Shown here piece by piece: positions 10,749 through 51,823 of a stretch of 54,794 bases of DNA (the first letter of the stretch is position 1; every line of letters begins with the position of its first letter). The stretch spans positions 1 to 54,794 of the forward strand of contig NZ_BJDK01000023.1 of the NCBI RefSeq assembly GCF_005405105.1, in the 5' to 3' direction. A program made the position numbers and the translations under genes. Below the pieces are notes generated by a model, which did not search any database, was not told the origin of the DNA, and worked only from the letters and a program-made list of their open reading frames with translations. Source of the DNA: Lactiplantibacillus dongliensis. GTDB lineage: Bacteria > Bacillota > Bacilli > Lactobacillales > Lactobacillaceae.

Positions 10749-10767
10749 ATTGGTAATTTGATCAAGC

Positions 10768-11053
10768 TTGCCACTCTGGTTGGGCCAGCATCGGCTGGAA
10801 CGTGGTGGCCACGTTTGAAAGCCAAAGTGCGGTCTTTCAAGCCGGGGGTTATCTAAGTTGGAAAATCACCGACTTAGATAAACGACACCACTGAGCCAAT
10901 GCTGGCCCGCCCGGCGTTAGCTAACAGGAATTAAATAATTAACGATTAGTTTAGTTGGATAGCTGTTAATTTGGCTTCAAAATGGTCCATGGTGTTTTAA
11001 CGTTTTTGAAATCAACCGACAGGCGGCAATTTTGACTAGTATTAAGTGTATGA
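10768..11053 (+). repeat. R1 structured repeat, copy B (decayed composite)
   Basis: The first half (10768-10920) has an outer stem GGGCCAGCAT/ATGCTGGCCC, a CGTGG/CCACG hairpin, a stem TTGAAAG/CTTTCAA (10815-10821/10834-10840), and a stem TTATCTAAGT/ACTTAGATAA (10849-10858/10872-10881). The second half (about 10968-11053) matches the right end of copy H, including GGCGGCAATTTTGACTAG. I see no gene in the whole 10749-11400 interval; 11054-11231 holds nothing I recognise. Confidence 0.8.
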
Positions 11054-11231
11054 ATCTGTTCAAAAGTTAGGGCCCTAAAATACGGTTTGTAGAGTGCTTT
11101 TTAGTTAAAAGTCACATTTTAAAGGGTATCCAGTTAAACGTCTTGATACGGCAAAAATGGTAGTTTCGACGACTTGAGCTAAATCAGTCTTAAGTTGTAA
11201 CCAACTCAACAAACAACCAGTTAATTAGCGC

Positions 11232-11391
11232 AGGACGGCCTGGATGATGCTCAGTGGTGACATTTCACTTGGCTGGTGATTTTTCCAGCCTAGTGAAAGC
11301 CCGGCTTTCGAGACCGATTTTTGGCTCGAAAACGTGGCCACCACGTTCCAGCATCAATCCAGGCCGTCCGGAGCGGTAATTTAAACTAGAT
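11232..11391 (-). repeat. R1 structured repeat, copy C
   Basis: This is a minus-oriented R1 element beside the 3' end of the NADH oxidase gene. The outer stem is GGACGGCCTGGA (from 11233) with TCCAGGCCGTCC (to 11369). That differs in most base pairs from the GGGCCAG/CTGGCCC stem of other copies, yet it pairs fully. Inner stems are TTTCACT/AGTGAAA (11263-11269/11292-11298), GGCTGG/CCAGCC (11271-11276/11285-11290) and TTTCGAG/CTCGAAA (11306-11312/11325-11331). Confidence 0.8.
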
Positions 11392-15590: not shown

Positions 15591-15649
15591 TTTGGTCACC
15601 TCGTATAATGAATTGTGTTTGGGTTGGAGCAGGTGGATTGTTGTTGGGC

Positions 15650-15894
15650 CGAAACGTGTTCGCTTGGGCAGTTTCTTCCGCTTAGCTACGCTTAACAACC
15701 ATATCGGAAAACCGCCGATATAATTGTTAAGCTAGGCTAATGCTCGTAAACTCCCGCCCTCGCTCACAGGCTTGTCGAAACGTGTTCGGCAAGCCTGCTT
15801 CTTCCGCTTGCTACGCCAGTCAACTATCCGAAAGACCACCGAATAATTGACTAGCTAGGCAATGCTCAGCAACACCCGACTTACCTCACACTCT
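15650..15894 (+). repeat. R2 structured repeats, two tandem units
   Basis: Two ~120-base units lie head to tail (about 15650-15772 and 15775-15894). Each begins with GAAACGTGTTCG and ends near CTCAC. Unit 1 has an outer stem GGGC-AGTTT with AAACT...GCCC (15666-15674/15748-15759) and a central hairpin CTTAACAA/TTGTTAAG (15691-15698/15724-15731) plus ATATCGG/CCGATAT (15701-15707/15715-15721). Unit 2 keeps AGTCAA/TTGACT (15818-15823/15847-15852). They lie antisense to the ABC operon, inside its 5' untranslated region. Confidence 0.8.
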
Positions 15895-16173: not shown

Positions 16174-16235
16174 GCCTATTATTAAAAAAACATGAGAAAG
16201 CAACAAGTGAATGATCAATAAAGTGACTGATACGG

Positions 16236-16399
16236 ATTAAATCTACCACTCTGGTTGGCCCAAAATCGGCTGGAACGTGGTGGCCGCGTTGGGAAGCCTC
16301 CAAACCGGGCTTGGGCTTCCCAATGGCTCATGGCGTTCCAGCGTTTTAGTGTCCAACCGGCAGGCGGCAATTTCAACTAGCATCAAGTGTAGATTTAAT
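16236..16399 (+). repeat. R1 structured repeat, copy D
   Basis: This 164-base copy is bounded by an 11-base perfect inverted repeat ATTAAATCTAC/GTAGATTTAAT (16236-16246/16389-16399). A central stem TTGGGAAG/CTTCCCAA lies at 16289-16296/16316-16323. The left half matches the CTCTGGTTGG...GGAACGTGGTGG end and the right half the CCGGCAGGCGGCAATTT end of copy H. Confidence 0.8.
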
Positions 16400-16608
16400 G
16401 TATTTAATGATAATTTATCGATGAATAACAAGCTTAGTAGATAGTGTAAAATATATAAATAATGTTATATTAAGTGCCTGAATGACAGCCTCGAAATTAG
16501 TGCTTTTTACCTGCTGACATCAGGAAATGTAACCGGTCGAGATGCCCCAGTTACCGGCCAGTTCCGGTTAATCCTAGATATAAATTCTTTGGTATAAAAT
16601 CATTAATA

Positions 16609-19467: not shown

Positions 19468-19507
19468 AAAAACGTCCGCAATCTTAGTTGGTTGCGGGCG
19501 TTTTTTC
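19468..19507 (+). terminator. Intrinsic terminator after the PTS/DUF3284 unit
   Basis: AAAAACGTCCGCAA pairs with TTGCGGGCGTTTTTT. Confidence 0.88.
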
Positions 19508-19526
19508 TTCGTTCCGACCGAGTCTA

Positions 19527-19567
19527 GGCCAACCAGAGTGGCAATTTAAGCCAACTAGTACCAAGCG
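19527..19567 (-). repeat. R1 remnant, copy E
   Basis: Only the terminal ~41 bases of R1 remain (GGCCAACCAGAGTGGC... ending CTAGTACCAAGCG), nearly identical to the same end at 60-100. Confidence 0.75.
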
Positions 19568-19609
19568 TGCAGCTATATTAATGTCGGTAATAAAAGATTG
19601 AAAACTGAG

Positions 19610-19644: not shown

Positions 19645-19937
19645 ACATTAGAAAATGATTAAGACGTTGAAGAGAAGAGTAGCGTTGTGACCAACTCCCC
19701 AGAGAGCTTCGAAGTGGTGTGAGAAGCAGTTGTGAGCAAAGTGAAGATGAGCTTGGAGTCATGATTCGGGTCGTAAGGCTACGAATGCGGTGGCAACCGA
19801 TATATTGCGGAGTATCCCCATTTGGCGGGGTACTTGTCGAGGTTATCATTGTGAGATGGTAACGAATCACGGTGGTAACGCGAAAGCTTTCGTCCGGTAG
19901 TTTCCTTAGGGAGACTATTGGACGGGAGCCTTTTTTT
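19645..19937 (+). promoter_or_regulatory. T-box leader, predicted methionine (ATG) specifier
   Basis: The T-box core CGGTGGTAACGCG is at 19870-19882, followed by a terminator hairpin (GTCC..TAGT..TTCC pairing with GGGA..ACTA..GGAC, 19892-19923) and a T run. The specifier loop has AGTA on the 5' side and GAAG-ATG-A on the 3' side, giving Met. This matches the metA-metY-hom genes downstream. T-box control of Met genes is established for Lactobacillales; the specifier reading is mine. Confidence 0.88.
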
Positions 19938-19940
19938 GTA

Positions 19941-20108
19941 GAGTGTGATGCCCAACGGGTTGCTCCTGAGCATTGCCTAGCTAAGGCAATGATTCCGGTG
20001 GGTTTCCGGAATGGTTGACTTAGCGTAGCAAGCGGAGGGAGCAGTTGGACCGAACACGTTTCGGCAGACTAAATGCGGAGGAAGCTGCCCGAACGAACAC
20101 GTTTCAGA
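19941..20108 (-). repeat. R2 structured repeat between Met T-box and metA
   Basis: This is a full R2 unit in minus orientation (about 19941-20065), with part of a second (to 20108). The outer stem is CCAAC...TGCTCC with GGAGCA-GTTGG (19952-19966/20038-20048). The central hairpin is GCTAAG/CTTAGC plus ATTCCGG/CCGGAAT (19980-19985/20019-20024; 19992-19998/20006-20012). It lies in the metA 5' untranslated region, antisense to the operon. Confidence 0.8.
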
Positions 20109-20156: not shown

Positions 20157-22312
<2,156 letters not shown>

Positions 22313-23681: not shown

Positions 23682-23722
23682 GTGGCGTTATTCGCTAGTA
23701 GTGTCATGATTGTGGTGCTGCT

Positions 23723-23970
23723 GAAACGTGTTCGGGCCAGCTGCGACTTGTGCTTGCGACGCTATCTTAGCTACTCGGGAAATTCATCGAGTAATTAAGA
23801 TGGTTAGGCAATGCTTGGCCGTAATCCGTTGGTCTTCACACTCTTGGCTGAAACGTGTTCGGGCCAGCTGCGACCTGTGCTTGCGACGCTATCCGGACAA
23901 CTCGGAAAATTCACCGAGTTATCCGGATAGCTAGGCAATGCTCAGTCGCAACCCGCTGGCCCTCACACTC
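23723..23970 (+). repeat. R2 structured repeats, two tandem units upstream of degV
   Basis: The units at about 23723-23845 and 23848-23970 both open with GAAACGTGTTCGGGCCAGC and close with TCACACTCTTG. Unit 1 has a central hairpin ATCTTA/TAAGAT with ACTCG/CGAGT. Unit 2 has TATCCGGA/TCCGGATA with ACTCGG/CCGAGT, and an outer stem GGGCCAGC...GCGAC with GTCGC...GCTGGCCC (23861-23874/23945-23962). They run in the same direction as degV and end 20 bases before it. Confidence 0.82.
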
Positions 23971-23989
23971 TTGAATTGGAGTGAAATAA

Positions 23990-25272: not shown

Positions 25273-25358
25273 CGTTGAGTTGAACACATAAGTTAGTTGA
25301 ACCATTCACATAGCAGTTTCACATAGCGTTATGATTAAGGCTTTCATTACACATAAAG

Positions 25359-25577
25359 TATACGCTTGGTGCTAGTTGAAATTGTCGCCTGCCGGTTGGG
25401 CCAGAATTGGCTCAGTGGTGTCGTTTATCTTGGTCGGTGATTTTCCGACTTAGATAAAGCCCGGCTTGGAAGACCGAACTTTGGCTTCCAAACGTGGCTT
25501 CCAAACGTGGCCACCACGTTCCAGCCGATGCTGGCCCAACCAGAGTGGTAAGTTTGATCCAACTAACACCAAGTATA
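25359..25577 (-). repeat. R1 structured repeat, copy F (complete, with terminal inverted repeats)
   Basis: The left end CGCTTGGTGCTAGTTG (25363-25378) is mirrored by CAACTAACACCAAG at the right (25560-25573), and both ends abut TATA. The outer stem GGTTGGGCCAG.../...CTGGCCCAACC encloses TTTATCT/AGATAAA with GTCGG/CCGAC, then TTGGAAG/CTTCCAA. A 13-base tandem duplication CTTCCAAACGTGG lies at 25485-25510. The element is ~219 bases. It looks like a non-autonomous mobile or dispersed element. Confidence 0.82.
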
Positions 25578-27877: not shown

Positions 27878-27891
27878 GTAGTTGGATTAAG

Positions 27892-28036
27892 TTGCCACTC
27901 TGGTTGGCCCAGCATCGGCTGGAACGTGGTGGCCACGTTTTTGAGCCATGGTGCGGTCTCGCAAGCCGGGCTTTATCTAAGTCGAAACCCGATAAACGAC
28001 ACTACTGAGCCAATTCTGGGTCGCCCGTCGTTAACT
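27892..28036 (+). repeat. R1 structured repeat, copy G (eroded)
   Basis: The element starts GCCACTCTGGTTGGCCCAGCATCGGCT and ends AGCCAATTCTGGGTCGCC, the outer stem of R1. The inner hairpins are shortened (GAG/CTC only; TTTATC with GATAAA). No other feature is seen between 28037 and 28214. Confidence 0.78.
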
Positions 28037-28214
28037 AACACATATTTTGGAATAAGATTGTTAAGTCATAGGGAGTGGGGTATTATAAGAATAATGATTT
28101 ACGGGTACATTAAGAAGCTGGTTGTTCAGGCCAGATATAAAGCTGATTGTGAGTCAAGATTGGCACAATGAGCATTAATTAATTTGTGAGACGTTAGATT
28201 TGGAGGGGACTTTC

Positions 28215-28415
28215 GTGCAACTGTTCGGTGACATCGTGGTATTTATTTATCTTATGTTAGCGTTATGTGTGGGCGTTTACCATTTATTGAAGCATGTCCA
28301 TAATCATAGTGGTTGGGTCCTAGTGACTGCGGATACGACTTTAACGGTTGCGACGATGCCAATGTTATTTATCTTTGGCATGTTAGTGTTGACGGATTTG
28401 CAGTTGTTGAGCTGA
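28215..28415 (+). CDS. Small membrane protein, 66 aa
   Basis: GTG 28215 follows GGAGGGGAC by about 6 bases. The product has two hydrophobic segments (about 5-25 and 36-62) and an HLLKHVHNHS linker between them. I do not recognise a family. It stands alone between two R1 repeats and has no clear terminator. Confidence 0.65.
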   Translation: MQLFGDIVVFIYLMLALCVGVYHLLKHVHNHSGWVLVTADTTLTVATMPMLFIFGMLVLTDLQLLS

Positions 28416-28436
28416 GGAAAGCTTTAGGGTGCATTT

Positions 28437-28834
28437 TATACGCTTGGTGCTAGTTGGTTTAAATTGTCACTCTGGTTGGTCCAGAATCGGCTGGAACGTG
28501 GTGGCCACGTTTGTGAGCCGAAGAGCGGTCTCACAAGCCGGGCTTTGACTAACCCGGAAAAATCACCGGCTAAGTCAAACGACACCACTGAGCCAATTCT
28601 GGCCTGCCCGCCGTTAGTTAGTCGATATTTATAAAATGTTCAATCAACATATTTAGCCGAGAGGTTGGTTCCTAAAATGTTCAGCCGTGTCGTTGGCCTT
28701 AGTGCGAGTGGTCTGCTCGGAACTTAGGCCACGGCCAGTTTTGAAGACCGCGCTTTGGCTTCAAAATGGCCCATGGCGTTCCAGCGTTTTAGGAACCAAC
28801 CGGCAGGCGGCAATTTTAGCTATCACCAAGCGTA
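28437..28834 (+). repeat. R1 structured repeat, copy H (full composite, ~400 bp)
   Basis: The left end TATACGCTTGGTGCTAGTTGG and right end ...TATCACCAAGCGTA form terminal inverted repeats. The first lobe holds TTGTGAG/CTCACAA (28511-28517/28530-28536) and TTTGACT/AGTCAAA with CCGG/CCGG. The second lobe is closed by GGTTGGTTCCTAAAAT with GTTTTAGGAACCAACC and holds TTTTGAAG/CTTCAAAA (28739-28746/28759-28766). This is the longest copy and appears to be the parent form of copies B and D. Confidence 0.82.
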
Positions 28835-41900: not shown

Positions 41901-41969
41901 GACTATATAAATAAAACGATTATTCAATTAATAATAAAAGGTGTTTGTGTGATCAAAGGGGAACCAAAG

Positions 41970-44954
41970 ATGACTAATCCAGAATCGAGTAAAACGCGTT
42001 TTAAATTGTATAAGCATAAGAAACTTTGGCTGGTAATGGGGATGACAACGACGATGCTGGCATTAGGGACTTTGCCAGCAACAATGGCGCAGGCGGATAC
42101 TGCAACAACGACCGGTGAAATGACTACGGTTACGCCAGCGAAGACGAGTGCATCAGCGACAGCCGCAACTTTGAGTGGGGCGACAAAGGCTAGTCCCGTT
42201 ACGTCGACGGCCTCAGTGGCGACAAGTGGTGATCGGGTTGCTAACTCTGATCAAAGTGCCGCTAGCGGCGCGGCTAACTCAACCGTCGACAATAATGGGA
42301 GCGCGAGTGGTTCTGAAAGCAGTCAAGTGAATTCAAGTACTGGTAGTACCGCACCGAGTGCCGCTAGTGCGGGGACTGAATCGGGGATGGCTAAGTCGGT
42401 TACTAGTCAAGCATCATCCGCCGCTACTTCAACGAGTACTAGCGTGGCGTCAACAGCGGTCCGTCAAAGTAGCGAACCGCGAATGATGCGAGTTGCGTCG
42501 CCAGCTGCTTTAATTAAAACGGCCGCTACCACTATGCCTAGTGATGATACCGTCGTCACGATTGCGGATACCAATCTAAGTAACGCGGTTAAACAAGGAC
42601 TTAATTTGGCAACGACTGATCAGATTACGATTGGTCAGATTAAAAATTATCCCGGTAATACCTTTACGATTGCGACGGGTGTAGATACGCCAATCAAAAC
42701 GTTGGCCGGTATTGAAAACCTGGAGTATCTGCCGGTAGGGGTACTAATTTATGCAGATCTTCAAATTGACAATGCTGCGGTAGATATTGATTTCACCCCG
42801 CTGGCACCGTTAAGATTTATCAGCTTAAGAATTCTATCAGACCATACTAGTCAGATGAACTTATTACCATTAATGGCCATTGACCCAAGTCACTTTACGG
42901 TAATGGGGATTGAACCTAATGGGGCTTCCTTTCAAGGCAATCAGTATGCGATGACTAACGAACAATTAGTGCAGCTAGCCCCTTGGCTGACTAAAATAGC
43001 CAATAATACTTATGCACGCGAATCCGGTCTTGAACTCAATAACAATTGTATTACGGACTTTTCACCATTAGCGGGGATTACCAAAAAGGGTGCTTATGTT
43101 TCTGCGATGGGGCAAGTGGCGATTGTGACTAATAATCCAGTTAATTTGGTTATTGGCCAACCCGCGACTTTTACCGGTGTTACGTTAACCGGTTTGTATG
43201 GTGAACCTATTTCCGATTCATACGGTTATTCTTGGAACACCGGTGTAGCGGGTAAGCACCCCATCAGTTCATTAGGTCAAAATCAATATTATATTGATGA
43301 TGTTCAGCAACTAACACCAGGTTACCCGTTCTTAACGTATGGCCATTTGGGGATACCTTACTCAGATCGCTGGCAGCCAGGTCGATATATTTTCAAGACG
43401 TATGCTAACGGTGTCTTGTTGCAGATGGATATCATGGTTTATCAGGTCGCTAACTGGCAAGCTCATCCTAATGTGACCGTTAAGTACGTCGATGCGAATG
43501 TTCAGCCAATCGCTGGCTTGGCTGATCAGGTCGTAAATGGTGTTAACATTGGCGATAGCTTTGATTTGAGTCCTTACTTACAAGTGGCTGGTTATCGGGC
43601 AGTTGCGACTAGTGGCCCCGTTACTGGGACATTTGGCCAAGACCCGCAAACGTTGTACGTTAAACTGATGCCAACGACGCCAGCTGGTCAAGTAACTGTT
43701 AACTATGTCGACACGGATGGTCACGTTTTAGCAACCACTGGGGCCACGTATCCAGATGGTCAGATTGTGGACCTAAGCTATACCACAGTCCAAAAAGTAT
43801 TCGATGGGTATGTTTTTAAGACGATGGCACCAGATAGTTTGGCTGCGAATGGGACGTTAACGGTCGCTGGTGGTACGGTGACGTATGTTTATACTAAAAA
43901 CGCCGCTTTGACTGGCAATGCCACCGTCACCTACTATGATGATACAACTGGTCAAATCTTGATAAACGACAGTTTAACTGGTGATCAAGGGACCGTTGCG
44001 ACTTACACGACTGCAACGAAAATTGCCAATTACTTGCAAGCAGGGTATAAGCTGGTTAATGATGATGTGCCGGCAAGCGGAATTATTTATGGGGCAACTC
44101 CAGTAACTTATACAGTTCGCTTGAATCATAAACTAACAACCATTACGGCTAGCGAGGCGTTACAAAAACAAGTCGTGCAAACGATTCAGTATCGGTATGC
44201 TGATGGGACGATGGCCGCGCCTGATAAAGTAACTGCTATTCGGTTTACTCGTACTGGTACGCGTGATGCCGTAACCAGCAAGGTGGTTTATACGGATTGG
44301 CAAAATAGCGACCGCCAGACGAGCTTTATAGCTCAGGTTTCACCAGTGATTGTCAATTATACAGCTGATCAATTAGTGATTGTTGCAGTTCCAGTTACGG
44401 CTTTGAGTACCGATATGATAACGACAGTTACTTATACGGTTAATCCAGTTAAACCAGTTGATCCAGATACTGGTAATACTGAAGCACCGACTAGCCCAGG
44501 TACTGATGATGCCAATCATACTGGTGAGATTGTAGCACCAACTGTTCCGAACACGGATAGTCAAAATGATGAGATTGCAACTGCTGATACTAATGAAGCT
44601 GATGTTGGCGATACAATTAAGAGTGTGACACCACCAATTATTGATGAACCAATTGATGTTGATAGTGGTCAGGCCGATATGATTCATAAAGGTGACACAA
44701 GGGTACCAGCCACTGAACCCCAGCAAGCTGCTGGTGAGAGAGTGACTGCTAAAGCCCAATTAGTTAAGTTAGCCACTGATAAGTCGGTTAATCAACCGAC
44801 CTCAGATTTAAAGCCGGTTTCAAGTCCTAAATTTGATAAATCAGCATTACCTCAAACCAATGATAACCAGCAGCAAGCAACGGGCTGGTTAGGATTAGGA
44901 ACATTGATTATGGCTTTATTAACAGCAGTTGGGTTTAAACAACGGAAAAATTAA
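41970..44954 (+). CDS. LPxTG-anchored MucBP-type adhesin 1
   Basis: This 994-aa surface protein has a long signal peptide of the KxYKxGKxW-related type (FKLYKHKKLWLVMG, then MATMAQADT-like cleavage region), and a Ser/Thr/Ala-rich stretch (~45-175). A leucine-rich internalin-like region (~190-370) includes LAGIENLEYL and ITDFSPLAGI. MucBP/mub-B2-like beta modules (~490-840) contain VTVKYVD, VTVNYVDTDG and TVTYYDDTTG. A Pro/Asp linker follows, then LPQTN (960-964), a hydrophobic segment and KQRKN for sortase anchoring. ATG 41970 has AAGGGG upstream. The likely role is binding to mucus or plant surfaces. Confidence 0.85.
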   Translation: MTNPESSKTRFKLYKHKKLWLVMGMTTTMLALGTLPATMAQADTATTTGEMTTVTPAKTSASATAATLSGATKASPVTSTASVATSGDRVANSDQSAASGAANSTVDNNGSASGSESSQVNSSTGSTAPSAASAGTESGMAKSVTSQASSAATSTSTSVASTAVRQSSEPRMMRVASPAALIKTAATTMPSDDTVVTIADTNLSNAVKQGLNLATTDQITIGQIKNYPGNTFTIATGVDTPIKTLAGIENLEYLPVGVLIYADLQIDNAAVDIDFTPLAPLRFISLRILSDHTSQMNLLPLMAIDPSHFTVMGIEPNGASFQGNQYAMTNEQLVQLAPWLTKIANNTYARESGLELNNNCITDFSPLAGITKKGAYVSAMGQVAIVTNNPVNLVIGQPATFTGVTLTGLYGEPISDSYGYSWNTGVAGKHPISSLGQNQYYIDDVQQLTPGYPFLTYGHLGIPYSDRWQPGRYIFKTYANGVLLQMDIMVYQVANWQAHPNVTVKYVDANVQPIAGLADQVVNGVNIGDSFDLSPYLQVAGYRAVATSGPVTGTFGQDPQTLYVKLMPTTPAGQVTVNYVDTDGHVLATTGATYPDGQIVDLSYTTVQKVFDGYVFKTMAPDSLAANGTLTVAGGTVTYVYTKNAALTGNATVTYYDDTTGQILINDSLTGDQGTVATYTTATKIANYLQAGYKLVNDDVPASGIIYGATPVTYTVRLNHKLTTITASEALQKQVVQTIQYRYADGTMAAPDKVTAIRFTRTGTRDAVTSKVVYTDWQNSDRQTSFIAQVSPVIVNYTADQLVIVAVPVTALSTDMITTVTYTVNPVKPVDPDTGNTEAPTSPGTDDANHTGEIVAPTVPNTDSQNDEIATADTNEADVGDTIKSVTPPIIDEPIDVDSGQADMIHKGDTRVPATEPQQAAGERVTAKAQLVKLATDKSVNQPTSDLKPVSSPKFDKSALPQTNDNQQQATGWLGLGTLIMALLTAVGFKQRKN

Positions 44955-44965
44955 ACTTTAGATTG

Positions 44966-44999
44966 GAAGCCTCAAACTTGGATTGGTTTGAGGCTTTTT
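44966..44999 (+). terminator. Terminator of adhesin 1
   Basis: GCCTCAAAC pairs with GTTTGAGGC, followed by six T. Confidence 0.88.
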
Positions 45000-45071
45000 T
45001 CGCGTTAATTCAAAATTGGTCTAGGTTGATTAATGAGTAACGTGAATTCCGATAGAAAAAAGTTTTGACCT

Positions 45072-45092
45072 AGTATTAGCGATTGTAATACT
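45072..45092 (+). promoter_or_regulatory. Distal inverted repeat upstream of adhesin 2
   Basis: AGTATTA-N7-TAATACT, 148 bases before the -35. A proximal AGTATTG lies at 45203. Confidence 0.6.
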
Positions 45093-45240
45093 GGTAGTGG
45101 TTCGGCTATATTTGGGCAAAAATGGTTGATAGGTAGTGACGTTAAGGCTTTTGAACGATTTATCAAAAAAGTTAAAGTGGTCAATGAATTTAAACCGATA
45201 TTAGTATTGATTATGGTTAATGATTGCAATAGTTTCCCTG

Positions 45241-45269
45241 TTGAATTAATTCATTTTTGGATTTATGAT
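45241..45269 (+). promoter_or_regulatory. Promoter of adhesin 2
   Basis: TTGAAT, 17 bases, TATGAT. Confidence 0.7.
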
Positions 45270-45339
45270 AAGAATATAAATAAAAAATAATTAATTTTTA
45301 TGATAAAAAATCGTCGGGATCACCAAGGGGGATACTAAA

Positions 45340-48300
45340 ATGGCTAATCAAGAATTGACAAAAACGCGGGTTAAAATGTATAAACACAAGAAGCTATGGA
45401 TGGTCATGGGTGTCACCTCGACGATGTTAGCACTTGGAACCATCGCAGCAACACCAGCACAAGCGGCAACTGACGATGTAGGTCAAAACAGTGTCACAAC
45501 GTCCACTAGTGCAGGGACGTCGGCCGGTTCGGCGGCTTTGAGCAACGCTGAAGTTACACCGGCGAGTGCTGAACCAGGCACGTCAGCGACAAGCGGTGAT
45601 GGTTCGACTAATTCTGGTCAAAGCGCAACCAGTGGTGAACCAGCATCCGCAACTAGTGAAGCTGGTTCTGAAGGCAGTCAGGTTGGGTCGAGTGTCGGTA
45701 GTAATGCTGCTTCAGTCGCTAGTGATGGGGTAAAGGCAACACCTTCTGCTAGTGATGCTAAATCAGTAGCAAGTCAGGCAACGACAAGTACTGCACCAAC
45801 TAATGTCAGTCCGGCGCCGGCAAACCAAGTCAAAAGTTCGCGGATGGCGGCACCGGCAGTGACGACTAAAGCCGCTGATACGACCACGCCAGATGATACG
45901 GTCGTGACGATTGCGGATGCCAACTTGAGTAATGCGATTAAAAAAGCCTTATTTGTAAATACTAGCAAAACGTTGACGGTTGGTGATATTCGTCATTACG
46001 ATAGCAGTCAGCATGGGCGGTTAACCGTTAATACTGATGCGACGCCGGTGACTACGCTCGCAGGGATTGAAAGTCTTAATTATCTGACAAGCGGGCCAAT
46101 TAGTTTGACCATTCGAATCGCAACGAGTGCGACTGTAAGTATGGATTTAAGTCCGTTAGCAGCTTTGAATTTGTATCAATTAACCATTGAATCGACTTAC
46201 CTAGGTTACGTTAATCTCAAGCCATTAACTGCAATTGATACGGATAACTTGTGGTATGTCGATATCAATCCTAATGAGTCACCTTATCAAGGACATCAAT
46301 ATGGGATGACGAATGCCCAATTAAAAGAATTGAGTGGCTGGCTAACTGCTATGGGAAATAATAAATTATCAGGTAACTATATTGGGTTAAACGGCAACTG
46401 CTTGACTGACTTTTCATCGTTAGCGGGTATTAATAAGTCTGGGGTCTTTATTGCGGCTGGTGGTCAGGTCGTCATGAAAACTAATGAGACACCGGTTAAT
46501 GTGGTCACTGGTCAATCGGCAGTCTTTACCGGGATGACGATTACTGGTGTTCAGGGTGAAACGATTAACGATGCGTTTGGCTATACGTTCAATACGGCTG
46601 ATGGCACGGAACAACGGTTAACTAATTTAGGCAATAATCAGTATCAGATTGATGATATTCAACCAATCAGTGGTTTTGATGGGTATATCGTTTATGGTAA
46701 CTTAGGTATTCCACACTCTGATAAATGGGAACCTGGTCGCTATGTAGATGTCACTTATAGCAATGGGGTATCATTCCGGACCGATATGCGGATTTTTCAA
46801 CCAGCTAATTTTCAGTCAGTGTCAACAGTTACCGTTAAATATGTGGACACTAAAGGCCAATCGATTACTGGCTTGCCTGATCAAGTTGTGAGTGGAACAA
46901 AAATCGGGGATAGCTTTGATTTAAGTCAATACATGCACGTTGCAAATTATGTGGCCTTGGCAACTAATGGCCCCATTCAAGGGACATTCAGTCAGAATCC
47001 ACAAATCTTGTATATCATGATGATTCCTAATACGCCTGCTGGCCAAGTTAACGTCGCTTATGTTGATAATGATGGTAACGTCTTAGCTACGGATACGGCA
47101 ACTTATCCAAATGGTCAAATCGTGGACTTAACTTATCAGACGACGCAAAAGGCGTTTGATGGCTATACGTTTAAAGGCATGGCTGAGGGCAGTTTGACAG
47201 CTAATGGGCGTTTAACTGTGGCTGGTGGTACGGTGACTTATGTTTATACGAAGAATGTCGTGTTGACTGGCGATGCAACGGTGACTTACGTTGATGATAC
47301 GACCGGTCAGACTTTGGCAACGGATGTCTTAACTGGTGACCAAGGCACGACTGCAGATTATACAACGGCCAATAAAGTGGCTAGTTATTTGAAAGCTGGC
47401 TATGACTTAGTTAATGATGGGGTACCAACTGATGGGATTATTTATGGCGAAGAACCCGTGACCTATAGTGTTCATTTGGCGCATCACGTGACTGCAATTA
47501 CTGATAAAGATGCGTTGCAAAAAACGATTACGCAAACCATTCACTATGTTTATAGCGATGGGACGACCGCGGCCGCTGAGAAAGTGGCGACGATTCAGTT
47601 CACGCGGACCGGCACAACGGATGCCGTTACCGGGGTAAGCACGTATACTGCTTGGGTCACTGAACAACCAACTGGCTTTGTTGCACAAGCATCACCAGTA
47701 ATTACCGATTACACGGCTGATCAGTTGGTTGTTGCCGCAGTGCCAGTAACGGCTGCTAGTGCTGACACAGTGACGACTGTGATTTATACGGCTAACCCCG
47801 TCAAGCCAACTGATCCCGATACTGGTAATAATGGTGGCGGAACCACGACACCAACGGCCCCGGATACGGATAATGACGGTGGTGGGACGACCACGACAAC
47901 CAGTCCGGATACCGATAATAACGGTGGCAGTACCACGACACCAACCACACCCGATACTGATGATAATGGTGTGGGCGACACGATTAATGTGGTAGCCCCT
48001 GAGGTTACGGCACCAGCCGATGTTGATAGTGGTCAAGCCGACCATATCCAAGTGGCACCAGTTAAAAAAGGAACGTCGTCAGCCAAGCCAACTGAGACGA
48101 AGTTGGCACCAGCTGATGATACTGTAAAAGTTGTCCCACAAGCATTAGGAACAACCAATGCTGCAGTCAAGCCCCAAGTTGTCAAAACAGCGACTAATGT
48201 TAAGGCAACTACTGATTCAAAGCCAACCACTAGTGCTTCTATGGCAAGAACCGGGCTACCACAAACCGGTGATGCACAACGCCCAACTACAGCTTGGCTA

Positions 48301-48363
48301 GGATTAGGGCTCTTGTTAAGCACTTTGTTAACGGCTGTTGGTTTTAAATCTCGGCAGCATTAA
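45340..48363 (+). CDS. LPxTG-anchored MucBP-type adhesin 2
   Basis: This 1007-aa paralogue of adhesin 1 has the same order. It has a VKMYKHKKLWMVMG signal segment, a Ser/Thr/Ala-rich stretch (~45-165) and a leucine-rich region (~185-370, LAGIESLNYL, LTDFSSLAGI). MucBP-like modules lie at about 490-563, 564-640, 641-718 and 719-823. A linker with three 15-residue repeats PDT(D/G)NNGG.TTT follows (826-870), then LPQTG (973-977), a membrane segment and FKSRQH. AAGGGGGA precedes ATG 45340. Its own promoter and terminator make it a separate transcription unit. Confidence 0.86.
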   Translation: MANQELTKTRVKMYKHKKLWMVMGVTSTMLALGTIAATPAQAATDDVGQNSVTTSTSAGTSAGSAALSNAEVTPASAEPGTSATSGDGSTNSGQSATSGEPASATSEAGSEGSQVGSSVGSNAASVASDGVKATPSASDAKSVASQATTSTAPTNVSPAPANQVKSSRMAAPAVTTKAADTTTPDDTVVTIADANLSNAIKKALFVNTSKTLTVGDIRHYDSSQHGRLTVNTDATPVTTLAGIESLNYLTSGPISLTIRIATSATVSMDLSPLAALNLYQLTIESTYLGYVNLKPLTAIDTDNLWYVDINPNESPYQGHQYGMTNAQLKELSGWLTAMGNNKLSGNYIGLNGNCLTDFSSLAGINKSGVFIAAGGQVVMKTNETPVNVVTGQSAVFTGMTITGVQGETINDAFGYTFNTADGTEQRLTNLGNNQYQIDDIQPISGFDGYIVYGNLGIPHSDKWEPGRYVDVTYSNGVSFRTDMRIFQPANFQSVSTVTVKYVDTKGQSITGLPDQVVSGTKIGDSFDLSQYMHVANYVALATNGPIQGTFSQNPQILYIMMIPNTPAGQVNVAYVDNDGNVLATDTATYPNGQIVDLTYQTTQKAFDGYTFKGMAEGSLTANGRLTVAGGTVTYVYTKNVVLTGDATVTYVDDTTGQTLATDVLTGDQGTTADYTTANKVASYLKAGYDLVNDGVPTDGIIYGEEPVTYSVHLAHHVTAITDKDALQKTITQTIHYVYSDGTTAAAEKVATIQFTRTGTTDAVTGVSTYTAWVTEQPTGFVAQASPVITDYTADQLVVAAVPVTAASADTVTTVIYTANPVKPTDPDTGNNGGGTTTPTAPDTDNDGGGTTTTTSPDTDNNGGSTTTPTTPDTDDNGVGDTINVVAPEVTAPADVDSGQADHIQVAPVKKGTSSAKPTETKLAPADDTVKVVPQALGTTNAAVKPQVVKTATNVKATTDSKPTTSASMARTGLPQTGDAQRPTTAWLGLGLLLSTLLTAVGFKSRQH
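47815..47949 (+). repeat. 45-bp tandem repeat in adhesin 2 linker
   Basis: Three 45-base units encode PDTGNNGGGTTTPTA and variants (15 aa each). This is a typical site for length variation between strains. Confidence 0.8.
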
Positions 48364-48376
48364 ACTATCATCGAAA

Positions 48377-48422
48377 AAAAACGCTGATTTAGTGCGAGAA
48401 ATCGCATTGAATCAGCGTTTTT
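48377..48422 (+). terminator. Terminator of adhesin 2
   Basis: AAAACGCTGATT..TGCGA pairs with TCGCA..AATCAGCGTTTT. Confidence 0.9.
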
Positions 48423-48451
48423 TATGTGAGTGAACAAATTAATTTACGGTC

Positions 48452-48472
48452 AGTATTAAGTTTGGTAATAAT
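48452..48472 (+). promoter_or_regulatory. Distal inverted repeat upstream of adhesin 3
   Basis: AGTATTA-N7-TAATAAT (one mismatch), 148 bases before the -35. Confidence 0.55.
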
Positions 48473-48620
48473 GCGAGGTTGATTGGCTCGCAAACGCTCA
48501 ATCAACGGTATTCGTTACTGTGAAACCGATTACGGCCAGATTTTAAATTAGTTAATTGGGTCAATCTATTTAAAGTAACATTACTATAATTTATGGTTGA
48601 TAATAGGCATTGTTAGCCTA

Positions 48621-48649
48621 TTGAACTATCAGTAGAACGGTTCTATGAT
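48621..48649 (+). promoter_or_regulatory. Promoter of adhesin 3
   Basis: TTGAAC, 17 bases, TATGAT. Confidence 0.7.
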
Positions 48650-48730
48650 AAGAGTATAAAATTAATTATTAAAGGTGATTTAATTATTCATATAGACGGC
48701 TAGTAACCATCAGCTTAGGGGGATACACAA

Positions 48731-51700
48731 ATGTTAACAACTCAAAGAACTAAAGAACACGTTAAGATGTATAAGCATAAGAAGTTATGGATGATTATGG
48801 GGATCACAACGGCGGTGATGGTGATGTCAACCACACAATTAACCGTGGCCAGTGCGAATACGAACCAGCAGGCTCCAACGGCGACTCAAGTCAGCAGTGC
48901 TGCCAGTTCATCGACTAGTCAGGCCTCAACTAGTGCCGCACCTAGCGCAACTAGCAGTGTGACCAGTGAAAGTAAAGTTAGTGGTCAATCAGCGGCGAGT
49001 GCGTCAGCTAGTGCTGGGTCTTCAGCCAGTTCGAGTGTGAGTCAAGCACCAACCAGTGTGACTAGTGGTACTTCAGCGGCGAGTGACGTTGCTAATAGCG
49101 CCACGAGTGCCGGTAATTCAGCTGCCAGCAATGCCAGTGCGGGTTCGGTAAGCTCACAAGGATCACAAGTTAAACAGGCGCAATCAGTTGCCAGTCAAGC
49201 ACGAGGCAGAATGGCGCGCAGTATGGTTAGCACGGGAACAACGACCACGACGACCACAACTACGGATGAGACAAATCCAGATGCGAAAACGCCTGATCCA
49301 GCAACTGTAGTGACGATTCCTGATGCTAATTTAAGAGCCATTATGAAAAAGGTATTTAATGTTGCTGACAATGACGAGCTGACTATTGGCACTATTGAAA
49401 AGTATCGTGGCAGCTTAAGCATTGAGACGACCTCACCTTACGTCAATAATAATCCTAATATTGCTGACACCACGATTGAAAGCTTAGCCGGAATTGAGAG
49501 TTTGCAATACCTAGCACCTTCAGTTGGGCTAACGGTACGGGTGGCCGCTGCTGATACTACAGCTGGAATTAATATTGATTTATCGCCACTGGCTAAGTTG
49601 CGGATGCAACGCTTGGAGTTATACTTGCCATATCCTGCCAAAACAAACTTAGATCCATTGAAAGCCATCGATGGTAGTGCAATCTATAACTTTGGCCTGT
49701 CACCAAGTATCGGGCAGTATCAAGGGCATCAATATGGGATGACTAATGCCCAATTAGCGTCACTGGGTCCTTGGTTAACCGCCATTGGGAATAATGGTCA
49801 TTCCCCTTACATTGGGATCGATAATAACGCCTTGTCCGACTTTTCACCATTGGCCGGAATCACTGGCAATGCTTTTATTGCGGCGGAAGGCCAAATGATT
49901 ATTAACCGAAACAACACCTTGAATCTAGTAAATGGTCAACCAGTAACGTTTACGGGTATCACGTTAACCGGACTTAAAGGAGAAACAATTAATGATGCGT
50001 TTAGGTGGAGCTTTAATACGAATGGGGCTGGACAACAAAGAATAACGTCTTTAGGCAATAATCAGTATCAAATTGACAATGTCCAACAATATCCGACCGT
50101 TAAAACATTCTTGATTTATGGCAATATTGGCTATGTTTATTCGGATTACGATTATCCGACCCCGCATGGTGACTTTGTGGAAGTAAAATATCCTGATGGG
50201 ACAACTTTGATTACTGATATGCAAGTCTATCAAAGTGCCCATTTCCAAGATCATCCTAACGTTACCGTCAAATACGTTGATCAAAACGTCAAACCAATTG
50301 CGGCATTGCCTGATCGAGTCGTCAATGGGGTTAATCTCGGTGATACTTATGATTTAAGCAGCTATATGAACGTGCCTGGTTACAAGGTGATTGCTCGGAC
50401 AGCGCCGTTGACGGGGACTTATACGTTGGACCCACAATATCTGTACTTGATGGCCGTGCCGGATGTGCCAGCTGGTGCCGTGACTGTCAATTATGTGGAT
50501 ACGGACGGCCAAGTTTTAGGAACAACGGCAGCCACTTATCCGCGTGGTCAACTAGTAGATTTGACGTATACTACGACACAAAAAGCGTTTGATGGTTACA
50601 CGTTTAGTCAAATGGGCACTGATAGCTTAGCCGCTAACGGAACTTTGACGGCAGCGGGTGGTACGGTCACTTATGTCTATACGAAGAACCCAGTTTTGAT
50701 GGGCCAAGTTACCGTGAACTATGTTGACGATACGAACGCCACAACCTTAAAAACGGTAACCTTAACTGGTGAACAGGGGAGTGCCGTGACTGATGATGCC
50801 GCGACGACCATCGCGGACTACCTGGCGGCGGGCTACGAATTAGGCCAAAATGACTTGCCAACGACGGCCTTCAATTATACCGATACGGCTCAAACATATA
50901 CGGTCCATTTTAAGCATCAGTTGACCGCGATGACGACTGCTAGTGACTTGCAAAAAGCCGTTACGCGGACGATTCATTATGTTTATGCAAACGGTAAAAC
51001 GGCGGCGGCTGACCAAGTAGCTACGGTTAACTTTATGCGGACGGGTCAAGTCGACTTGGTGACTGGTGTGAAGACTTATACCGATTGGGTCGCTGCAAAC
51101 GGCGTAACGGACTTTGCTGCCCAAGTCGCGCCAACGATTGCTGGCTATACCGCTGATCATTTGACGGTGGCGGCGATGCCGGTTACGGCTGCCAGTGCTG
51201 ATTTAGAGACAACGGTGACTTATACTGCTAATCCAGTTCAACCGACCAAGCCAACCAAACCAGCTACTAATCCTAACCAGGAGGTCACACCACCAACGAA
51301 GCCGGCGACTGATCACAATACCGGCGTGACGACGCCAGCTGAACCGAATACGGATCAGTCTGGTGCGACAATCGATCCAACTAGTCCTGATACTGGCGCT
51401 GCGGATGGCATCACGGTGACGACTGACACTAATCAGCCAGTTACGACCACGGCACCAACGGTTGTAGATGATGGTGTTGGCGACACGATTGCGCCGACAT
51501 CAACCAATGTCAATACTGGTCAACCGGTTAAATTGGCTAGTGCTAAGACAGTTGATTTGGCTCCGGATGGTGATGCTTTGAATGCGGGTGTTAGCCGGAC
51601 GACAGCTCAGGTATCGCAACCAACGACTAAAGCAGTGATTAAGACGACAACCGTTGTCCCAGTCAAAGCAGCGTTTAAACCGGTCACTAGTTCAAAGATG

Positions 51701-51823
51701 GCGACCCCGGCGTTACCACAAACTAGTGATGACAATCAACCAGCGACAGCTTGGTTGGGTCTCGGCGTCTTGCTAACTAGTCTATTAACGGCACTAGGAT
51801 TTAAAGCTCGGAAACAAGATTAG
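48731..51823 (+). CDS. LPxTG-anchored MucBP-type adhesin 3
   Basis: This 1030-aa third paralogue has a VKMYKHKKLWMIMG signal segment and a Ser/Ala-rich region to ~165. A poly-Thr run follows (~173-180), then a leucine-rich region (~195-385, LAGIESLQYL, LSDFSPLAGI), MucBP-like modules (~510-840), a Pro/Thr/Asp linker with NPNQEVTPP-type repeats, LPQTS (995-999), a membrane segment and FKARKQD. GGGGGATACACAA precedes ATG 48731. The low-complexity Ser/Thr regions may carry glycans; this is inference. Confidence 0.86.
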   Translation: MLTTQRTKEHVKMYKHKKLWMIMGITTAVMVMSTTQLTVASANTNQQAPTATQVSSAASSSTSQASTSAAPSATSSVTSESKVSGQSAASASASAGSSASSSVSQAPTSVTSGTSAASDVANSATSAGNSAASNASAGSVSSQGSQVKQAQSVASQARGRMARSMVSTGTTTTTTTTTDETNPDAKTPDPATVVTIPDANLRAIMKKVFNVADNDELTIGTIEKYRGSLSIETTSPYVNNNPNIADTTIESLAGIESLQYLAPSVGLTVRVAAADTTAGINIDLSPLAKLRMQRLELYLPYPAKTNLDPLKAIDGSAIYNFGLSPSIGQYQGHQYGMTNAQLASLGPWLTAIGNNGHSPYIGIDNNALSDFSPLAGITGNAFIAAEGQMIINRNNTLNLVNGQPVTFTGITLTGLKGETINDAFRWSFNTNGAGQQRITSLGNNQYQIDNVQQYPTVKTFLIYGNIGYVYSDYDYPTPHGDFVEVKYPDGTTLITDMQVYQSAHFQDHPNVTVKYVDQNVKPIAALPDRVVNGVNLGDTYDLSSYMNVPGYKVIARTAPLTGTYTLDPQYLYLMAVPDVPAGAVTVNYVDTDGQVLGTTAATYPRGQLVDLTYTTTQKAFDGYTFSQMGTDSLAANGTLTAAGGTVTYVYTKNPVLMGQVTVNYVDDTNATTLKTVTLTGEQGSAVTDDAATTIADYLAAGYELGQNDLPTTAFNYTDTAQTYTVHFKHQLTAMTTASDLQKAVTRTIHYVYANGKTAAADQVATVNFMRTGQVDLVTGVKTYTDWVAANGVTDFAAQVAPTIAGYTADHLTVAAMPVTAASADLETTVTYTANPVQPTKPTKPATNPNQEVTPPTKPATDHNTGVTTPAEPNTDQSGATIDPTSPDTGAADGITVTTDTNQPVTTTAPTVVDDGVGDTIAPTSTNVNTGQPVKLASAKTVDLAPDGDALNAGVSRTTAQVSQPTTKAVIKTTTVVPVKAAFKPVTSSKMATPALPQTSDDNQPATAWLGLGVLLTSLLTALGFKARKQD

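Follow-up and report, generated by a model that had tools for sequence, protein, structure and literature searches.

Several described families of small structured repeats stand close to the one reported here, R2; ERIC/RU, BOX, bcr1 and REPIN are likened to it by description, not by sequence alignment. ERIC/RU-1 elements of enterobacteria (about 127 bp) resemble R2 in length, stem-loop form, intergenic position and high copy number, and have been likened to MITEs (PMC2759123). They differ from R2 in sequence and phylum and in their TA ends and TA target duplications, which were not clearly seen in R2, and the available part of that source does not mention in-place stem replacement, which is a trait of R2 (PMC2759123). 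BOX, RUP and SPRITE of Streptococcus pneumoniae are likewise small structured Gram-positive repeats, some of which are concentrated around the 3′ ends of genes; BOX is built of modules, among which boxB varies in number, whereas the plan of R2 is fixed (PMC3049150, a text in which the word Lactobacillus does not occur). Among stem-loop repeats of Firmicutes, bcr1 of the Bacillus cereus group (147–167 bp) and the families in PMC2267715 are similar by description, and a single Lactobacillus, L. johnsonii (Lac-1, typed G), is met in the accessible part of that source. REP and REPIN sequences are extragenic hairpins like R2, and part of the E. coli REPs lie no more than 15 nt from a stop codon, as far as the available text of PMC12306157 goes; a REP measures 20–40 bp compared with about 124 for R2.

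R2 units are about 120–126 nt long and, like ERIC/RU-like MITEs, are non-coding imperfect palindromes with many intergenic copies (contexts from simple ORF calls). The best reading of R2 is a new family of small mobile hairpin elements, of the ERIC/BOX/bcr1 kind, that docks at stop codons and turns over its stems. Among the titles and abstracts listed for the literature on Lactobacillus repeats, MITEs and small RNAs, mostly outside subscription journals, none dealt with R2.

R2 in the window and across Lactobacillaceae

The window is a 54,794-nt stretch of the Lactiplantibacillus dongliensis genome (71 contigs, 3.1 Mb; G000). A preliminary description of it had claimed five units of a repeat with conserved ends and stems that differ by copy and still pair; all five were found within 3 bases of their positions, and the ends and stems are as described. 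An iterative profile search of 20 stretches of this genome together with the window gave 35 copies, which were aligned on the strand first read (A1, structure-free) and on the opposite strand (A2). The covariance model, named R1 (distinct from the repeat family R1), has 124 positions and 39 pairs. Strands given here for units hit by this model are those of the better fold in the R2 family.

The first two units form a head-to-tail pair on the minus strand. The leading unit, 15774..15894 (115.9 bits), has a terminator-like T run (TTTTTTGTATTCC) 7 bases ahead of it, and its identity to its R2 partner in the sister species G017 is 0.50 in the outer and 0.93 in the inner stems (array). The second, 15648..15772 (98.5 bits), is 70% identical to its G017 partner, in an array in which the pairing may be wrong. 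The third unit, 19940..20065 on the plus strand (123.4 bits), lies 5′ of a homoserine O-succinyltransferase gene (Pfam HTS match, 20157–21026) and is immediately preceded by a terminator-like T run (TTTTTTTGT). We take the sequence before it, at about 19850–19939, to be the end of a T-box-like leader (GGTGGTAACGCG and a terminator) of this gene; Rfam at its cut-off reports no T-box there. A truncated remnant consisting of a 3′ arm and 3′ end is recognizable by eye on the plus strand at about 20074–20107, where the model gives no hit.

The last two units are a tandem pair on the minus strand. The unit at 23847..23971 (130.1 bits) is the best folded of the five (−77.7 kcal/mol as RNA on the minus strand) and lies antisense to, and just upstream of, a DegV-family gene (DegV domain match). 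Its weaker neighbour, 23720..23844 (90.6 bits), folds better as RNA on the plus strand and is the sole such exception among the 35 aligned units. Two units thus occupy 23720–23971, with one at the orthologous place in G017 and remnants in several other genomes. On the strand first read, the RNA folding z-scores of the five units are −5.75, −2.02, −6.66, −3.92 and −11.06 in window order. Elsewhere in the window, three consecutive related open reading frames of about 1000 amino acids each occupy 41949–51823; a KxYKxGKxW signal and MucBP domains were identified in the first, the one scanned.

R2 is confirmed as a family, and it is larger than first described. In L. dongliensis the model gives 64 hits with E values of 0.001 or below. 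Scores exceed 77 bits in 55 of these, and the weaker hits include short, decayed or contig-end copies. The search of Lactiplantibacillus that the preliminary description had proposed found R2 in all 21 genus genomes, with 8 to 107 hits each. Family-wide, where filters were tighter and some 11 candidates per genome were scored, R2 matched in 138 of 301 genomes and 20 of 40 genera (these are not copy numbers). Class-wide, a match among 398 genomes was obtained in the L. dongliensis genome alone; of the 397 other genomes, 20 are listed, two of these from its own family.

The claim that no described family matches is borne out for Rfam, in which a match had been named as a ground for refutation. 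Two R2 stretches compared with release 15 at E values up to 10 gave matches that all lie far below the cut-off, an Rfam scan of the window returned a T-box at 1096–1330 alone and nothing at R2, and a scan of 20 R2 loci returned one L31 leader, which is not R2. On another such ground, an end sequence derived from an IS, the evidence is indirect: two R2 units used as blastn queries had no match in plasmid or phage collections, and 8 of the 21 carrier genomes lack the IS200-type transposase family.

A conserved hairpin with variable stems

The fold of R2 is a single long, imperfect hairpin whose internal loops do not vary. The outer part comprises a 4-bp base helix, a tandem GA/GA loop, an 8-bp outer helix, a GGGU bulge and a 6–7-bp helix; the inner part comprises a GA/GNA loop, a helix of GC, an A bulge and UUGC, a CUA/GUA loop, a 16–18-bp inner helix and the terminal loop. 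Units of other genera share this plan, with constant loops and variable stems. The bulge first described as ACCC is present, but reads GGGU on the opposite, better-folding strand. By eye, a small mismatch in the inner helix of L. dongliensis copies seems to shift by one base pair between units, with the total length about constant.

Covariation is strong at both scales examined. A4 has 64 rows, of which 63 are L. dongliensis units and the other is a weak match, on the reverse strand, to one of these same units. Its cells are 91.9% paired, versus 72.7 ± 0.5% in shuffles and 25–45% in slid controls; the covariation score of 0.465 (0.146 shuffled) was reached in 0 of 500 shuffles, and both sides have changed in 32 of the 39 pairs. 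A second set, of 31 rows drawn from Lactiplantibacillus and from other genera, is 94.9% paired, versus 62.1% when shuffled and 31–44% when slid, with a covariation score of 0.792 versus 0.181. The shuffles ignore relatedness, whereas the slid controls preserve it. A3 and A4 were fitted to the covariance model; on the structure-free A1, RNAalifold recovered the stem, with 21 of 31 pairs compensated. The earlier proposal of selection on the fold is therefore supported within the genome and across genera by shuffles and slid controls alike, and the lack of covariation across genomes that would have spoken against it was not seen, the score lying above all of these controls.

The better fold lies on the strand opposite to the one first read. 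The minimum free energy as RNA is lower on the opposite strand in 34 of the 35 aligned units, and in 60 of 64, 41 of 43 and 53 of 54 rows of three row sets (the 64 include the 35). In first-read orientation, A1 contains 76 A·C mispairs compared with 20 G·T, and the A·C mispairs become G·T on the opposite strand. The wobble excess is small in other genera (29 GU versus 17 AC), and we infer that the energy gap between strands stems partly from the GA/GA loops. What this asymmetry suggests is a folded single strand, be it RNA or DNA. The two forms considered earlier were RNA and a DNA cruciform; since the two strands differ clearly in how well they fold, RNA or single-stranded DNA is favoured over a symmetric cruciform.

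Docking at stop codons and T runs

Positions were counted for the first unit of each array, read on the folding strand, with the mirror arrangement as control and gene contexts taken from simple ORF calls. A co-oriented stop codon precedes the 5′ end of R2 by no more than 8 nt in 16 of 52 L. dongliensis units (mirror, 1 of 52), in 14 of 51 units of G017, mostly at the same loci (mirror, 0), and in 13 of 33 units of other genera (mirror, 0). Within 60 nt of a stop codon, docked and mirror counts are 18 versus 6, 16 versus 2 and 17 versus 2, respectively. A unit further along an array in another genus (L204:1144) is placed in mirror fashion, at 6 nt. Of the 16 docked L. dongliensis units, 11 complete the stop codon with an A or AG of their own. 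Other units follow T runs, which were called by text pattern and not each confirmed as terminators, in 18 of 52 cases in L. dongliensis, 20 of 51 in G017 and 0 of 33 in other genera. We rejected R2 itself as an intrinsic terminator: a T-tract would be expected 3′ of the hairpin, and the 3′ flanks are, by eye, mostly A-rich.

In G001, for which 51 of 56 R2 hits were examined, adjacency to stop codons is weaker (8 of 51; mirror, 3 of 51, two of these three involving open reading frames of only 80–85 codons), and of the 18 T-run calls, 10 concern units that sit inside another repeat. Fifteen R2 units of this genome lie inside copies of what is apparently repeat family R1, at one position. Family R1 is also interspersed in the window, in both orientations, at 1–100, 10751–11381, 16234–16401, 19487–19568, 25351–25568 and 27879–28834.

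Three loci show both occupied and empty R2 sites across the genus genomes. At L020, 4 of 21 genomes carry an R2 that begins at the stop codon, each with a stem set of its own. No R2 appears within the 190 nt printed for the remaining 17, of which 15 have, soon after the stop codon, a stretch resembling a ribosome-binding site and the same next gene. At L018, R2 stands at the stop codon in 2 of 21 genomes and is absent there in 19, of which G005 and G008 carry R2-like remnants farther downstream. At L076, 4 of 20 genomes have R2 behind the T run of a leader, and two may retain remnants; the leader looks T-box-like to us, and Rfam reports no T-box there. No clear target-site duplication was found at R2, and one of 1–2 nt would be hidden in the A- or T-rich flanks. 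In the flank listing and the three occupied and empty loci compared, T or TA often precedes R2, and TA does not regularly follow it. Tandem units of L. dongliensis lie head to tail with a spacing of 0–3 nt, and of 14 nt in one pair (L017).

These positions bear on the idea that R2 serves the host as an RNA element of 3′ untranslated regions or leaders, where it would block 3′ exonucleases, brake the terminating ribosome or bind a protein. Units at stop codons are oriented with the transcription strand, the better-folding strand there being the transcribed one, and the tandem GA and bulge motifs look RNA-like. E. coli offers a precedent: REPs situated no more than 15 nt from a stop codon are reported, in the available part of the source, to affect translation (PMC12306157), making a side effect of R2 on the upstream gene plausible. 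However, copies antisense to both neighbours retain their pairing and G·U excess, which weakens a pure host-mRNA function. With classes that rest on rough contexts from simple ORF calls, antisense copies are 94.2% paired (20 distinct) and same-strand copies 92.6% (54) in L. dongliensis and G017 together, with GU:AC wobbles of 35:13 and 106:23, respectively; the corresponding pairing is 92.4% (16) versus 95.0% (12) in G001 and 95.6% (7) versus 97.7% (10) in other genera. As the antisense copies fold about as well, dependence on host transcription is probably at most slight. R2 is, moreover, missing from most congeners at the three loci compared, and we regard a host RNA element as an unlikely explanation, albeit one to be taken seriously. 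Selection seems to act on the R2 element itself, which is the simplest reading, and effects on the upstream mRNA, such as REP-like braking or protection behind a stop codon, are probably secondary.

Replacement of stems in place

For 60 of the 64 L. dongliensis hits, the orthologous place was compared in the sister species G017; ties in the list were broken by R2 similarity, and tandem units may be mispaired. An R2 is present at the same place for 54 of the 60, so that new insertion is slow, which counts against a mobile element. Turnover of the paired stems far outpaces that of the DNA around them, and the folded shape is kept. Identity between orthologous units ranges from 100% down to 49%, with flanks at 78–99%, most of them above 88%. 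Outer-stem identity exceeds 0.9 in 21 of the 54 pairs, is below 0.75 in 27 and lies between in 6, compared with an average of 0.48 for unrelated L. dongliensis copies; both stem sets differ in 17 pairs, and neither in 16. Eleven of the 27 changed outer stems belong to arrays, to a swapped pair or to an internally deleted copy, in which orthologs may be mispaired, and the remaining 16 lie outside these. Stems have changed under near-identical flanks, for example at L022/L104 and L084/L139.

Stem sets also change separately. In five pairs the outer set has changed in both arms and the inner set is kept (three are in arrays, and in one the L. dongliensis copy is decayed); L005:5227 is the one clean outer-only change (outer identity 0.50, inner 1.00), and L020 (0.46 and 0.80) and the window unit at 19940 (0.46 and 0.90) are partly so. 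Within L. dongliensis, 46 pairs of copies have one stem set in common and not the other, a few of them involving a cut-off copy. A close match elsewhere in the same genome, and hence a possible donor, exists for only 9 of 28 changed outer stems in L. dongliensis and 9 of 23 in G017 (counted slightly differently from the 27 above). Fewer than 65% of outer pairs are formed in 5 of 64 rows; L017:2032 and L008:2168, with broken outer stems, look like half-exchanged units. Two facing copies, L075:1561–1810 and L125:1536–1789, are swapped between the species: identities are 0.94 and 0.90 when the copies are compared crosswise, and 0.70 and 0.65 when compared in place. This looks like an inversion whose breakpoints lie at the outer end of each unit.

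Such changes could in principle be mutational: quasi-palindrome correction by template switching copies one arm onto the other, and would produce covariation without selection. This accounts for both arms changing together, and quickly. It does not predict the wobble asymmetry between strands, however, and an unpaired bulge persists on one arm in 48 of 64, 32 of 43 and 39 of 54 rows (as scored with a simple pattern), the loops stay fixed as the stems change, and some new outer stems occur in other copies. We consider this explanation highly improbable.

The same changes recall recombination sites. Integron attC sites are bulged hairpins of which one strand is folded; their stems vary, and they lie behind stop codons in fixed orientation. 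R2 units may similarly be targets of a folded-strand recombinase that exchanges or inserts units site-specifically at existing units. This would amount to an undescribed recombination system of Lactobacillaceae, in which an enzyme, of the host or the element, reads the fixed loops and swaps stem modules (both arms) or whole units. The head-to-tail arrays with mostly 0–3 nt between units, the change in place, the fixed-orientation position behind stop codons and the inversion bounded by the outer ends of two facing units would all fit. The attC-like traits are ones of analogy only, however: neither attC boxes nor gene cassettes were seen in R2 by eye, and no recombinase was identified in a search that covered PF01797 alone. 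Because outer-only exchange occurs cleanly at one single, undecayed site, L005:5227, we hold recombinase targets to be a doubtful identification, and the recombination system as a whole to be just as doubtful; both overlap with a mobile-element reading. If such a system exists, R2 would consist of gene-less attC-like sites, located at stop codons and terminators, that keep their address as their identity is rewritten.

Alternatively, R2 might be REPIN-like and owe its movement to a Y1 transposase of the IS200/RAYT type, acting on single-stranded DNA hairpins. REPINs, in the portion of PMC3116915 available, match R2 in being strand-specific hairpins that are extragenic, dispersed, arranged in arrays and persistent. 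Unlike REPIN/RAYT systems, however, 8 of the 21 R2-bearing genus genomes have no match to PF01797, among them L. dongliensis with its 64 R2 hits. Nor do the counts track each other (8 PF01797 matches and 107 R2 hits in G007; 7 and 11 in G019). Insertion by replication strand, which was considered separately, was rejected for lack of bias in G001, in which 22 of 51 units are leading and 29 lagging, with ter placed near 1.5 Mb by GC skew; this too speaks against REPIN/RAYT, the least probable of the explanations considered here.

We lean, with moderate confidence, towards R2 units being small non-coding mobile hairpin elements of Lactobacillaceae with exchange between copies. A protein or ribonucleoprotein would recognize the loops and ends of one folded strand, either single-stranded DNA or a transcript of the element, and would move or copy the unit. 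Stems would be swapped when copies recombine at their conserved loop boxes, and units left with unpaired arms would be lost, or repaired by further exchange. A search for the mobilizing enzyme that covered PF01797 alone found none, this domain being absent from L. dongliensis and seven other carriers.

If this reading is right, an unlisted repeat family, with very strong covariation inside single genomes, is present in at least 20 genera of well-studied food and gut bacteria. The covariance model can be used for its annotation, and R2 is a possible marker for strain typing. The turnover data make it testable how bacteria preserve the fold of many dispersed hairpins through stem replacement, and whether exchange takes place in units of one folded single strand.
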